Positions 55,933 to 58,965 of a DNA stretch of 64,000 bases are shown in pieces. The stretch lies in NCBI RefSeq assembly GCF_000355695.1, contig NC_020891.1, forward strand, positions 1,922,001-1,986,000, written 5' to 3'. The stretch is from Clavibacter nebraskensis NCPPB 2581. GTDB lineage: Bacteria; Actinomycetota; Actinomycetes; Actinomycetales; Microbacteriaceae. Within the stretch, counting starts at the first letter, position 1. Every line of letters starts with the position of its first letter. Below the pieces are notes generated by a model. It did no database searches. It was not told the origin of the DNA and saw only the letters and a list, made by a program, of their open reading frames with translations. Position numbers and translations under genes: made by a program.

Positions 55933-56676
55933 GTGCAGAGGATCCTCGGTGGCGTGCGCCTGGTCGCCGCGATCGTCGTGGTCGTCGCGCTCGTCGCCGA
56001 CTTCGACTATGTGCAGGGCTTCACGACCTTCGCGGCCGAGAACTGGTTCAGCTACTTCACGACGCAGAGCGGCATGGCGGGCGTCGTCGTGCTCGCGGCG
56101 TCCGGCCTGCACGCGCTGCGGGGCCGCGTCGAGCTGCCGCTGATGGCCGCCGTGCGCGCCGTGGTGCTCAGCTACGTCGTGGTGTCCGGCGTGGTCTTCG
56201 GCCTCATCGTGCTGGAGTCGAGCTCGCAGGCCTACTACGTCGAGGTGCCGTGGTCGAGCCGGCTGCTGCACTTCGTGATCCCCGCCTACGCGCTCCTCGA
56301 CTGGACCCTCGCGCCCGGACGCCCGCGCGTCACGTGGAAGGCGGTCGGCTGGGCGATGCTCTTCCCAGTCGCCTGGTGCGCGTTCACGGAGGTCCGCGGC
56401 CCGCGCGTGGGCTGGTACCCGTACTTCTTCCTGGATCCCGCGCAGGTCGGCGTCCCGTTCGAGATCGCCGCGTGGCTGGCGCTCGTGGCAGGGGTGCTGG
56501 CGGGGGTGTCCGCGTCCGTCGTGGCGCTCAGCCGCGTGCGGCCGGCGGAGGCCGCGCCTCGGGACGGCGCCCGCTCGGGCGGCGAGGAACAGGACCGGGA
56601 GGCCGTCGCGCCCGCCCCCGAGTCGAGGCCCGCGTCCCCGTCGACGTCGCGTGAGACGGCGGCCGCCGAGCGCTGA
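55933..56676 (+). CDS. Pr6Pr family membrane protein
   Basis: 247-residue protein with about six membrane helices, including LVAAIVVVVALVADFDYV, MAGVVVLAASGLHALRG and AVRAVVLSYVVVSGVVFGLIV. The block PWSSRLLHFVIPAYALLDWTLAPGRPRVTW matches the FAR-17a/AIG1-related Pr6Pr proteins. A charged, disordered C-terminal tail of about 45 residues follows the last helix. The GTG at 55933 has GGAG upstream. Function unknown. Confidence 0.8.
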   Translation: MQRILGGVRLVAAIVVVVALVADFDYVQGFTTFAAENWFSYFTTQSGMAGVVVLAASGLHALRGRVELPLMAAVRAVVLSYVVVSGVVFGLIVLESSSQAYYVEVPWSSRLLHFVIPAYALLDWTLAPGRPRVTWKAVGWAMLFPVAWCAFTEVRGPRVGWYPYFFLDPAQVGVPFEIAAWLALVAGVLAGVSASVVALSRVRPAEAAPRDGARSGGEEQDREAVAPAPESRPASPSTSRETAAAER

Positions 56677-56725
56677 GCGTCCGGTGCACCCCGATGGGCG
56701 GATCCGCCCGTGCGAGCCTGGGGGC

Positions 56726-57475
56726 ATGACCGCTCCCGACGACCCCCTGACCCCGGACGACGACCGCCCCGCCCTCGAGCTGCGGTGGCCGAGCGTGATG
56801 ACCGATGGCGGCGATCCCGAGGCCCCCGTCGTCGACGTCGTGAACGTCGGCACCGAGCGATGGATCCCGCGAGAGGGCGACGCCCTCCTGGCGTTCGGCG
56901 CGTTCACGGAGCCCGGCGCGCCCGCGCCCGGGATCCCCTTCGCCTTCGCCGGCGGGCCGCGCGGAGCGGTGGCGCTGGATCCCGGCGACAGCACGCGCGT
57001 GCCCGTCGCCATCGCGGCCGGCGACTGGACCGGGCTGCGACCCGGCCCGCACGACCTCCACGCCGCGCTCGTCGGCCGGCACGCGCACCGAGCCGGCCCC
57101 CTCCGCGTGACCGTCACGGCCGAGGCGATCGCGCGCCGCCGACCGGTCGACGGGTCGGGACGGCCTCCGACGGACTCCGACATCCGCCGGTCGTACGACG
57201 CGCGCATCGCCTGGCTCCGGATGCGCGTCGCCGCCGCCGACGCGCTCGGGCCCCTCGTCGCCGAGCTCGCCGGGGTCGCGTCCCGGGCCGAGGCCGGGGA
57301 ACGGATCCGCGGGCTGCTCGAGGTCGACGAGGAGCACGCCGAGCTGCTGCTGCACGCGCAGCTGCTGGATCTCCTGCCGTACTCGGCGGAGGCGACCCGC
57401 CGAGAGGTCGACGAGGCCGTGCTGCGGCGGGACGCGCTCGGGCCGGAGCCCGCGGAGGACCCGGGTCCGTCCTAG
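56726..57475 (+). CDS. Hypothetical protein with a GyrA-like C-terminal segment
   Basis: 249-residue protein I cannot assign. Residues 1 to about 150 look like a beta-sandwich (ALELRWPSVMTDGGDPEAPVVDVVNVGTERW). From about residue 158 a helical region (DARIAWLRMRVAAADAL, then AELAGVASRAEAGERIRGLLEVDEEHAELLLHAQLLDLL) has the spacing and key residues of the coiled-coil end of the DNA gyrase A N-terminal part. Whether this is homology is not certain. A GAGCCT hexamer lies 6 nt before the ATG. The stop is shared with the convergent amine oxidase gene as CTAG. Confidence 0.7.
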   Translation: MTAPDDPLTPDDDRPALELRWPSVMTDGGDPEAPVVDVVNVGTERWIPREGDALLAFGAFTEPGAPAPGIPFAFAGGPRGAVALDPGDSTRVPVAIAAGDWTGLRPGPHDLHAALVGRHAHRAGPLRVTVTAEAIARRRPVDGSGRPPTDSDIRRSYDARIAWLRMRVAAADALGPLVAELAGVASRAEAGERIRGLLEVDEEHAELLLHAQLLDLLPYSAEATRREVDEAVLRRDALGPEPAEDPGPS

Positions 57476-58965
57476 GGCGTCGGGGTCGCGCTCGGGCCCG
57501 GATCCGGGGTGGCCGTCCCCTCCGCCAGGAGCGACGGATCCGCGAACGGCGCGAGCGTGCGGAGCGCCGCCGACCGCAGCGCCTGGTCGTCCATGGCCGC
57601 CACCCGCTCGGCCGCCGCCGCGCCCACCTCGGCCATGAGCACGGGCTCGCCCGAGATCGGCATGAGGTTGTACCAGCGCGTGAAGCTGCCGCCGGCGTCG
57701 TAGGAGGTCCAGACCGTCGCGGTCGTGGACCAGAACGGCTCCTCGAAGCGCAGCCAGATCCGGTCGGCGCGGCCGGGCCCGAGCGCGCGGATGGCGACGT
57801 CGTGCGAGGACGGCAGCGCCGGGTCGAACGCGATCGCGCCCTCCTGCAGCACGCCGAGCGGCACGGTCACGACCACGCGGTCGACCGACAGCGACTCGCC
57901 GGACCCGAGCCGCAGCCCCACCCGGCCGTTGCCGTACGCGATGCGGGTGACGGTGGACTCCCGCAGCACGTCGATGTCCTGGTCCCGGAGGAGGTGCTGC
58001 ACGAGGCCCGCGAAGCCGCCCGTGACGGCGACGTTGCCGACGGGCGCCGGCTCGTCGAGGCCGTGGGCGCCGGAGAGCTCGTCGGGCGCGGCGCCGTGGG
58101 CGATCGCGACGTCGGTGGCGAGGAGCGCGGCGAGGCGGGCGGCGGGCGAGGCGGCGCCGCCCTCGGTGGAGAGCGCGTCGCCGCCGGTCTCGCGCAGGGC
58201 CGCGGCGAGGCTCACGGCGCCGGGCTGCGCGCGGGCCCGGGCCTGCGCGGCGGCGAGGGCGTCGGATCCGGCGGTCGAGGGATCCAGCACCGCGCCGTCG
58301 GGTCCGCGGCTCTCGGCGACGAGCGCGAGGCCGTAGCGCGCGACGCCGGCGGCCTCGAGCGCGTCGCGCAGCAGGTCGTCGTGGTCGGCGGCGATCCAGA
58401 GGGCGCCGAGCTCCGCGGGGTGCGGCCAGCCGGTGCCGCCGGCCGCGCGGATCCGGCCGCCGAGGTCCGCGCGAGCCTCCATGAGCACCACGTCGTGCCC
58501 GGCGTCGCGGAGGGCGCGGGCGGCCGCCGTGCCCGCGATGCCGGCGCCGACCACCGCGACGCGCTCGGATCCGGCGCCCGCGCGATCCACCTCGCCGGCC
58601 GCGCGGATCCCCGAGGCGTAGGCGCCCGCGACCGTGCCGGGGCGGTCGGCGCTGGTGTGCTCCCCGGCGAAGAACACGCGGTCCTCGAGCGGGCGGGCGA
58701 GCGCCTCGCGGTCGGCGGTCATGGCGCCGGGGCGGAGGAAGCTGCCGGATCCGCGCGCGAACGGGTCGCCCGCCCAGTCGGAGCGCGCGAAGGCGACGGG
58801 TTCCGGGAGGCCGGCCGCGCCCACGGTGGGCGTGGGGGTCGGGGTCGGCGAGGGGCTGGCCGTGGGGGTCGCGGGTGTCGGCGTCGTCCGGGTGCACGCC
58901 GCGAGCCCGAGGAGCGACAACCCCGACACGGACGCGGTGAGGAGGGTGCGGCGGGAGATCGACAT
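57472..58965 (-). CDS. Circularly permuted flavin amine oxidase (lipoprotein or Tat-type export)
   Basis: 497-residue FAD-dependent amine oxidase in an unusual order. The N-terminus (ISRRTLLTASVSGLSLLGLAAC) has an RR and a lipobox with C24. After a Thr/Pro-rich linker, residues 52-126 (PEPVAFARSDWAGDPFARG, DRVFFAGEHTS, GTVAGAYASGIRAA) match what is normally the C-terminus of monoamine oxidases, with the FAD-contacting FAGE and GTVxGAxxSG motifs. Only then comes the usual N-terminal Rossmann motif VAVVGAGIAGTAAARAL (G140, G142, G145) and ARADLGGRIRA. The chain ends just where the normal C-terminal segment would begin. Substrate unknown. Convergent overlap with the previous gene at CTAG. Confidence 0.85.
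   Translation of the reverse strand: MSISRRTLLTASVSGLSLLGLAACTRTTPTPATPTASPSPTPTPTPTVGAAGLPEPVAFARSDWAGDPFARGSGSFLRPGAMTADREALARPLEDRVFFAGEHTSADRPGTVAGAYASGIRAAGEVDRAGAGSERVAVVGAGIAGTAAARALRDAGHDVVLMEARADLGGRIRAAGGTGWPHPAELGALWIAADHDDLLRDALEAAGVARYGLALVAESRGPDGAVLDPSTAGSDALAAAQARARAQPGAVSLAAALRETGGDALSTEGGAASPAARLAALLATDVAIAHGAAPDELSGAHGLDEPAPVGNVAVTGGFAGLVQHLLRDQDIDVLRESTVTRIAYGNGRVGLRLGSGESLSVDRVVVTVPLGVLQEGAIAFDPALPSSHDVAIRALGPGRADRIWLRFEEPFWSTTATVWTSYDAGGSFTRWYNLMPISGEPVLMAEVGAAAAERVAAMDDQALRSAALRTLAPFADPSLLAEGTATPDPGPSATPTP

Follow-up and report, generated by a model that had tools for sequence, protein, structure and literature searches.

Evidence for an inherited, circularly permuted flavin amine oxidase fold in a predicted exported lipoprotein of Clavibacter nebraskensis

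Flavin amine oxidases (family PF01593) are among the best-studied flavoenzymes. Active oxidases of the monoamine oxidase (MAO), polyamine oxidase (PAO) and LSD1 group are marked by a lysine water-bonded to flavin N5 and by an aromatic-cage residue at the place of LSD1 Tyr761, whose roles are treated in the consulted parts of PMC3184146, PMC12272882 and PMC7576179. According to the portion of PMC3184146 consulted, the substitution K661A leaves LSD1 without activity and K300M makes flavin reduction in maize polyamine oxidase 1400-fold slower, and an active-site residue is strictly conserved among the polyamine oxidases aligned in the consulted section of PMC7576179. Here we analysed a window of 64,000 nucleotides from Clavibacter nebraskensis NCPPB 2581 (NC_020891.1, positions 1,922,001 to 1,986,000 of the forward strand), in which an initial annotation had pointed to a gene for a circularly permuted flavin amine oxidase. 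Our comparisons indicate that a circular permutation of this fold (PF01593, LSD1/polyamine-oxidase-like) is almost certainly real. The explanation that we find likely as a whole is that the permutation is old and inherited, and that the protein belongs to a branch of exported flavin adenine dinucleotide (FAD) lipoproteins with altered chemistry, encoded beside a membrane protein of the Pr6Pr family.

The gene is a single open frame that runs from an ATG at position 58965 to a stop at 57472 on the minus strand and encodes 497 amino acids (aa). Searching its translation with the PF01593 model gave 166.5 bits over three stretches (curated cut-off 19.8), which makes the protein a member of the family and provides the domain search that the initial annotation had proposed. 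With phmmer against PDB sequences, query residues 133-208, 344-415 and 48-124 corresponded to residues 4-78, 252-324 and 400-477 of spermine oxidase (each stretch E ≤ 2.5e-7; 5.1e-30 overall), and the best PDB matches were LSD2 (E 5.2e-78 with profile A2) and spermine oxidase. Every block of the fold occurs once, in the order C-terminal FAD-binding block, Rossmann block, middle block (C-N-M) instead of the ordinary N-M-C, which is the rotated arrangement of a circular permutant. The segment given beforehand as residues 52-126 does align to amine oxidases, and its limits, like those of the Rossmann motif at 140-145, are correct to within two residues. It was likewise observed, by comparison with ordinary relatives, that the chain terminates at the position where their C-block begins. 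The gene and its parts are as follows.

57472..58965, minus strand: gene for the permuted protein resembling flavin amine oxidases (497 codons and a stop; orthologues at full length in 17 of 18 genomes of the genus, counting its own)
58894..58965, minus strand: putative twin-arginine translocation (Tat) type signal, residues 1-24, with twin arginine (5-6) and lipobox Cys24 (invariant in 54/54 distinct family sequences)
58807..58893, minus strand: Thr/Pro/Ser-rich linker, residues 25-53 (from the sequence)
58585..58806, minus strand: C-block, residues 54-127, corresponding to the FAD-binding block at the C-terminus of ordinary flavin amine oxidases (aligned with spermine oxidase 400-477 and LSD2 chain 700-773)
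58567..58584, minus strand: junction linking the C-block to the Rossmann strand, residues 128-133 (from the G119-G140 distance)
57541..58566, minus strand: Rossmann and middle blocks, residues 134-475 (match spermine oxidase 4-78 and 252-324; collinear in permuted relatives)
58531..58548, minus strand: GAGIAG dinucleotide motif, residues 140-145 (from the sequence)
57760..57762, minus strand: codon for Arg402, which occupies the flavin lysine position (gap-free alignment to Lys, LSD2 chain residue 615)
58744..58746, minus strand: codon for Gly74, which occupies the aromatic-cage Tyr position (alignment to LSD2 and spermine oxidase)
57475..57540, minus strand: Thr/Pro-rich tail, residues 476-497 (from the sequence; highest dN/dS, the ratio of nonsynonymous to synonymous substitution rates, among the regions measured)

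The C-block carries FAGEHT and GTVAGAYASG. Ahead of it, the leader and Thr/Pro linker that had been predicted are both present, with arginines at positions 5-6, Cys24 within the sequence LAAC, and the linker at 25-53. We read the arginine pair and the cysteine as putative Tat and lipobox motifs, and we infer from them that the protein is exported by Tat and lipid-anchored. The C-terminal tail is rich in Thr, Pro and Ser like the N-terminal linker, as are the C-ends of L052, L054, L058 and L063, and linker and tail both sit at the new chain ends. Nothing else in the genome matches the protein at E 0.001; a search of the same genome with PF01593 gave 11 matched stretches, three of which lie in the permuted gene and two of which are full-length matches elsewhere.

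The block order was then scored by a two-model test on 140 frames (at least 200 aa and carrying both blocks, some of them being one gene seen in overlapping loci), among which 102 were permuted, 38 ordinary and 0 mixed. The breakpoint was identical in all 36 permuted proteins examined and lies in the loop that connects the last middle-block helix to the C-block. In these 36 proteins, 18-24 residues separate G119 of the C-block from the first glycine of the Rossmann motif (G140 in the window protein), the distance being 21 in 21 of them. In known structures of ordinary flavin amine oxidases, the N- and C-termini lie close together. Moreover, the chains of the ordinary relatives L153, L159, L160, L165 and L171 stop one or two residues past the C-block, so that a short link could join the old ends. 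The C-N-M order, with the signal peptide retained, would have arisen if an exported enzyme of ordinary order had been duplicated in tandem and the outer parts then lost; with the ordinary termini near each other, a short linker would join them, and opening the loop before the C-block would preserve the fold. No fused, half-way or intermediate gene was found among the loci examined.

The full-length gene is carried by 17 of 18 Clavibacter genomes. In the remaining one, G004 (620 contigs), the gene is absent and there is also no long match to the surrounding 4.5 kb, which may reflect either an assembly gap or true absence. A query restricted to the junction (residues 55-195) gave spanning matches at E ≤ 1e-20 in at least 135 of 398 Microbacteriaceae genomes, from 31 of 85 genera, with at most 10 candidates scored per genome and with one of the 135 rows, G373, containing an internal stop; a weak spanning row in G228 (E 1.2e-13, one TGA) was left out of this count. 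With junction profile A1, spanning matches were found in 4 genomes from other families of the order (396 searched), in 13 genomes of the class outside the order (394 searched; one further match is cut by a contig edge), and in 4 from other classes (296 searched), these three sets also containing Microbacteriaceae genomes. A junction-like match in G840 (query 10-137, one TGA) turned out, on reading the locus, to be the start of an ordinary gene and was not counted. Scanning genome contigs with the window protein returned 4 Clavibacter loci, the ordinary relative L027 and 11 other matches, each to a single part. The permuted order is shared widely within Actinomycetota.

Mobile elements were searched as well. 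Of 102 matching plasmid records, none covers 80% of the query at one place, and the 25 of these 102 that were listed all end at or before query residue 119, within the C-block. Phage records gave no match, and IMG/VR gave 8 loci, all of ordinary order, with another search there returning 3 loci, 0 of which spanned the junction. Several groups stood apart among the relatives. L093, L094 and L096 come from small genomes of Microbacteriaceae; these permuted proteins retain the flavin lysine, their junction is shorter (18 residues), and they group with permuted proteins of other families. L130-L133 are permuted, show no visible export leader, and carry Trp in the cage position and Met in that of Thr111. 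An RR/Cys leader was not seen in the permuted proteins of groups f15/f16, and ordinary-order proteins with a similar RR/Cys leader exist. Two genomes of group f22 (loci L162 and L213) each have a pair of ordinary-order amine oxidase frames on one strand, about 1 kb apart.

We considered whether this arrangement might stem from faulty sequencing or assembly, or from a rearrangement local to one genome. The initial annotation had asked for the frame to be checked in close relatives for this reason, and since the same block order is found in so many of them (17 of 18 genomes of the genus, at least 135 of 398 of the family, and other classes), with the gene under purifying selection, this explanation is excluded for any practical purpose. 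Whether the permutation arose once or several times is a finer question. In FastTree the permuted proteins fall in five groups, and in a quick IQ-TREE tree four changes are needed, deep nodes being weak in both. Such free trees speak for several independent events at one structural loop, as do the junction linker lengths (18, 19, 20, 21 and 24) and the f15/f16 group with no visible signal peptide. Against repeated events stands the breakpoint, which is the same in 36/36 proteins; furthermore, a tree in which the permuted proteins were constrained to one clade scored 8.66 log-likelihood units higher than the free search, and a single clade was not rejected by the approximately unbiased test (p-AU 0.66, or 0.69 with the f15/f16 group removed). 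Before trees or counts we dropped L106 (frame broken), L152 (partial), L168 (block set incomplete), L170, L161, L162, duplicates and most near-identical Clavibacter rows. A single origin is thus allowed by the trees, short of proof, and we hold repeated origins to be unlikely.

The catalytic positions were compared across 122 sequences, comprising 47 Microbacteriaceae main-branch proteins, 17 from Clavibacter, 23 other permuted proteins and 35 of ordinary order. Counts at individual sites vary a little with the alignment (W190, for instance, stands in 35/35 ordinary proteins in one and in 34/35 in another), and where they differ the alignment giving 34/35 is followed. The FAD motifs (G140/G142/G145, E163, GGR 169-171 and GE 101-102) are intact in 120 of 122 sequences, the two exceptions being Glu/Asp exchanges. 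The window protein itself has the family's GxGxxG, acidic ribose residue, GGR and FAGE, and very probably binds FAD. Its active site is another matter. Arg402 aligns without gaps to the lysine at residue 615 of the LSD2 chain, which, going by construct numbering, we take to be Lys661, so that the lysine water-bonded to flavin N5 is missing. Gly74, at the place of LSD1 Tyr761, aligns to Tyr in both LSD2 and spermine oxidase, and the WIH motif reads WIA (A192). The protein does keep W190 and also W412.

These losses are typical of the Microbacteriaceae branch and not of the other permuted relatives. The flavin lysine is kept in 34/35 ordinary and 21/23 other permuted proteins, as against 10/47 main-branch and 0/17 Clavibacter proteins (10/64 of the whole branch). 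Similarly, Tyr74 occurs in 30/35 ordinary proteins (Phe in the remaining 5), 19/23 other permuted proteins (Trp in the remaining 4), 2/47 main-branch and 0/17 Clavibacter proteins, or 2/48 of the branch when one Clavibacter row is counted. W190 was found in 34/35, 23/23, 8/47 and 17/17 of the four groups (ordinary, other permuted, main-branch and Clavibacter), and His192 in 31/35 ordinary, 19/23 other permuted and 2/48 branch proteins, again with one Clavibacter row. Among the 47 main-branch sequences, eight kinds of residue occur at 402 and twelve at 74, and residues conserved specifically in the branch include R61, P181, E357, W404 and A416. Within Clavibacter the gene is under purifying selection, with a median dN/dS of 0.25 over 105 pairs (15 of the 17 genes, L012 and L014 being left out); by region, the median was 0.12 for the C-block, 0.18 for the Rossmann block, 0.32 for the middle block and 0.66 for the tail.

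Pr6Pr is encoded next to the permuted gene, and the two neighbouring features in the window are as follows.

55933..56676, plus strand: Pr6Pr family membrane protein, convergent neighbour (NF038065, 220 bits, cut-off 30)
56651..57475, plus strand: 274-aa frame between the Pr6Pr and flavoprotein genes (no family match; shares a few bases with each neighbour)

The 274-aa frame sets the pair 795 bases apart in the window; it is not among the neighbours shared by the 41 loci (the window and L069-L108) that were covered by neighbour clustering. One family, Pr6Pr, lies beside the permuted gene at 36 of these 41 loci, and scripted scoring placed it in convergent orientation at 36 of 41, the 3' ends overlapping by 4 to 139 bases in 27 of the 36 convergent pairs. 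At L090, Pr6Pr is convergent once its domain is located within a long frame. The other loci outside the count are L082, which is cut by a contig end, and L093, L094 and L096, which belong with the lysine-keepers and of which L093 and L096 lie on short contigs. All 37 testable branch loci therefore have a convergent Pr6Pr. Neither 16 other permuted loci (L093, L094, L096, L198-L208, L215 and L216) nor 6 ordinary ones (L209-L214) showed a Pr6Pr neighbour in the DNA examined. Pr6Pr proteins are widespread in the family (119 of 140 genomes). In a tree including 20 non-adjacent Pr6Pr proteins, 38 of the 39 rows from branch loci form one group with support 89, made up of the 37 convergent proteins and a second copy from L073. 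At both L073 and L083 a second Pr6Pr copy lies on the opposite side of the permuted gene, and that of L083 falls outside the group. At L106, the flavoprotein is split over two frames while the Pr6Pr frame is open.

The invariant residues of Pr6Pr are N37, T43, H113, and WYPY followed by F166 and D168. Thr43 and His113 resemble the Thr/His pair of AIG1/ADTRP hydrolases. A reading of Pr6Pr as an AIG1-like hydrolase was set aside, since only 1 of 20 members had a Pfam match to that family (E 0.49) and the PDB search lent it no support. No open-licence paper using the word Pr6Pr was found.

From these elements, a course can be proposed for the branch protein. FAD would be loaded in the cytoplasm, the folded flavoprotein would be exported by Tat and lipid-anchored outside, and there it would serve, at the outer face of the membrane, as a slow- or non-oxidase flavoprotein (a dehydrogenase or an electron-transfer partner) of Pr6Pr. 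Such a slow- or non-oxidase role is the most likely one for the branch. That it works with Pr6Pr has, in our estimate, an even chance. The most detailed version, in which the permuted oxidase evolved once in Actinobacteria and one branch became a lysine-less, lipid-anchored extracytoplasmic redox module passing electrons or substrate to a dedicated Pr6Pr whose gene is convergent and mostly overlaps, is tentative and on balance doubtful. Several observations weigh against our explanation and should be set beside it. Loss of the lysine is uneven, since it is kept in 10 of the 47 branch sequences from outside Clavibacter, and Phe stands at 74 in 14 of 47. The window protein retains W190, and Arg402 might partly stand in for the lysine. 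The group counts are of related sequences and not of independent events, for which reason the Fisher p of 1e-10 is too small. Deep nodes are weak, and free trees scatter the permuted proteins over several places. The support of 89 for the Pr6Pr group is below the 95 starred by the tree tool, Pr6Pr is also present in genomes that have no permuted gene, and a convergent overlap could persist with no shared function.

That last point leads to the view of Pr6Pr as a passenger, in which a convergent overlap is hard to break and the pair is kept for no shared function. With 3' ends overlapping in 27 of 36 convergent pairs, separating the genes would damage one of them; the 274-aa frame lying between the pair in the window also fits this view, and through it the spacing of the pair is free there. 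Contrary to it are the 0 losses in 37 testable branch loci, the single group formed by the partner Pr6Pr proteins (support 89), and the fact that the pairing was not seen at L205 and L206, whose proteins L155 and L156 keep the lysine and are the nearest relatives of the branch in the quick IQ-TREE tree. We regard a passenger as a real possibility, somewhat short of an even one. As for chemistry, the window protein could still be an ordinary active amine or polyamine oxidase whose chain is merely permuted, given that it keeps the FAD motifs, W190 and W412, that lysine persists in 10 of 47 branch members, and that other permuted proteins keep Lys (21/23), Tyr74 (19/23) and W190 (23/23). R402, G74 and A192 argue against this, as does a branch with no Lys in 54 of 64 members and no Tyr74 in 46 of 48; combined with the K661A and K300M results given in the consulted part of PMC3184146, these three residues make the ordinary oxidase reaction unlikely for the window protein, and we consider a normal oxidase improbable here. 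Alternatively, the branch proteins might be FAD-binding pseudo-enzymes, that is, structural or sensor lipoproteins with no turnover. Active-site positions that drift (eight residues at 402, twelve at 74) beside unchanging FAD contacts would suit this, but the middle block is under purifying selection (dN/dS 0.32) and the new residues conserved in the branch (R61, P181, E357, W404 and A416) would fit a changed activity equally well, and we hold the pseudo-enzyme to be improbable too. Returning to the altered-chemistry flavoprotein that we prefer, loss of normal oxidase activity in the window protein's branch appears fairly probable, and the amine oxidase label of the initial annotation is too simple: that the protein works as such an enzyme is not supported, with Arg402 for the lysine, Gly74 for the cage Tyr and WIA for WIH. 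The name amine oxidase is doubtful for this branch, whereas the outgroup permuted proteins are probably active amine oxidases, most of them having lysine, cage Tyr and WIH in place.

One phylum thus holds a natural experiment, with permuted proteins that have and lack the catalytic lysine as well as ordinary proteins. The set allows asking whether a two-part FAD-binding site tolerates rewiring and why the rewired form persisted, and how an oxidase fold turns to another use beside a membrane partner. It is also a warning that naming by family match to amine oxidases is probably wrong for much of the branch. The earlier remark that no such example was described agrees with the open-licence PMC papers searched, in which we found no natural permutant of flavin amine oxidases and, among open-licence papers, none linking Clavibacter with this family name. 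What is new here is a permuted branch with its FAD motifs kept, its flavin lysine and cage Tyr mostly lost, and a convergent Pr6Pr.

Compared with known systems, the window protein shares all three blocks and the FAD motifs with the flavin amine oxidases of PF01593 (LSD1/LSD2, spermine oxidase, polyamine oxidase and MAO), but it has the order C-N-M where they have N-M-C, bears an exported lipoprotein-like leader, and is altered at the flavin lysine, cage Tyr and WIH. Ordinary-order exported amine oxidases of actinobacteria (e.g., L184, L185, L186 and L160) belong to the same family and phylum and have an RR and Cys leader; unlike the window protein, they have the ordinary order and keep the lysine, and no Pr6Pr neighbour was seen at L212 and L213, the two such loci examined. 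The neighbour in the window is itself a member of the described Pr6Pr family (NF038065). Finally, the natural circular permutants of other folds, as presented in the consulted part of PMC2395249, represent the same type of event, with old ends joined and new ends opened.
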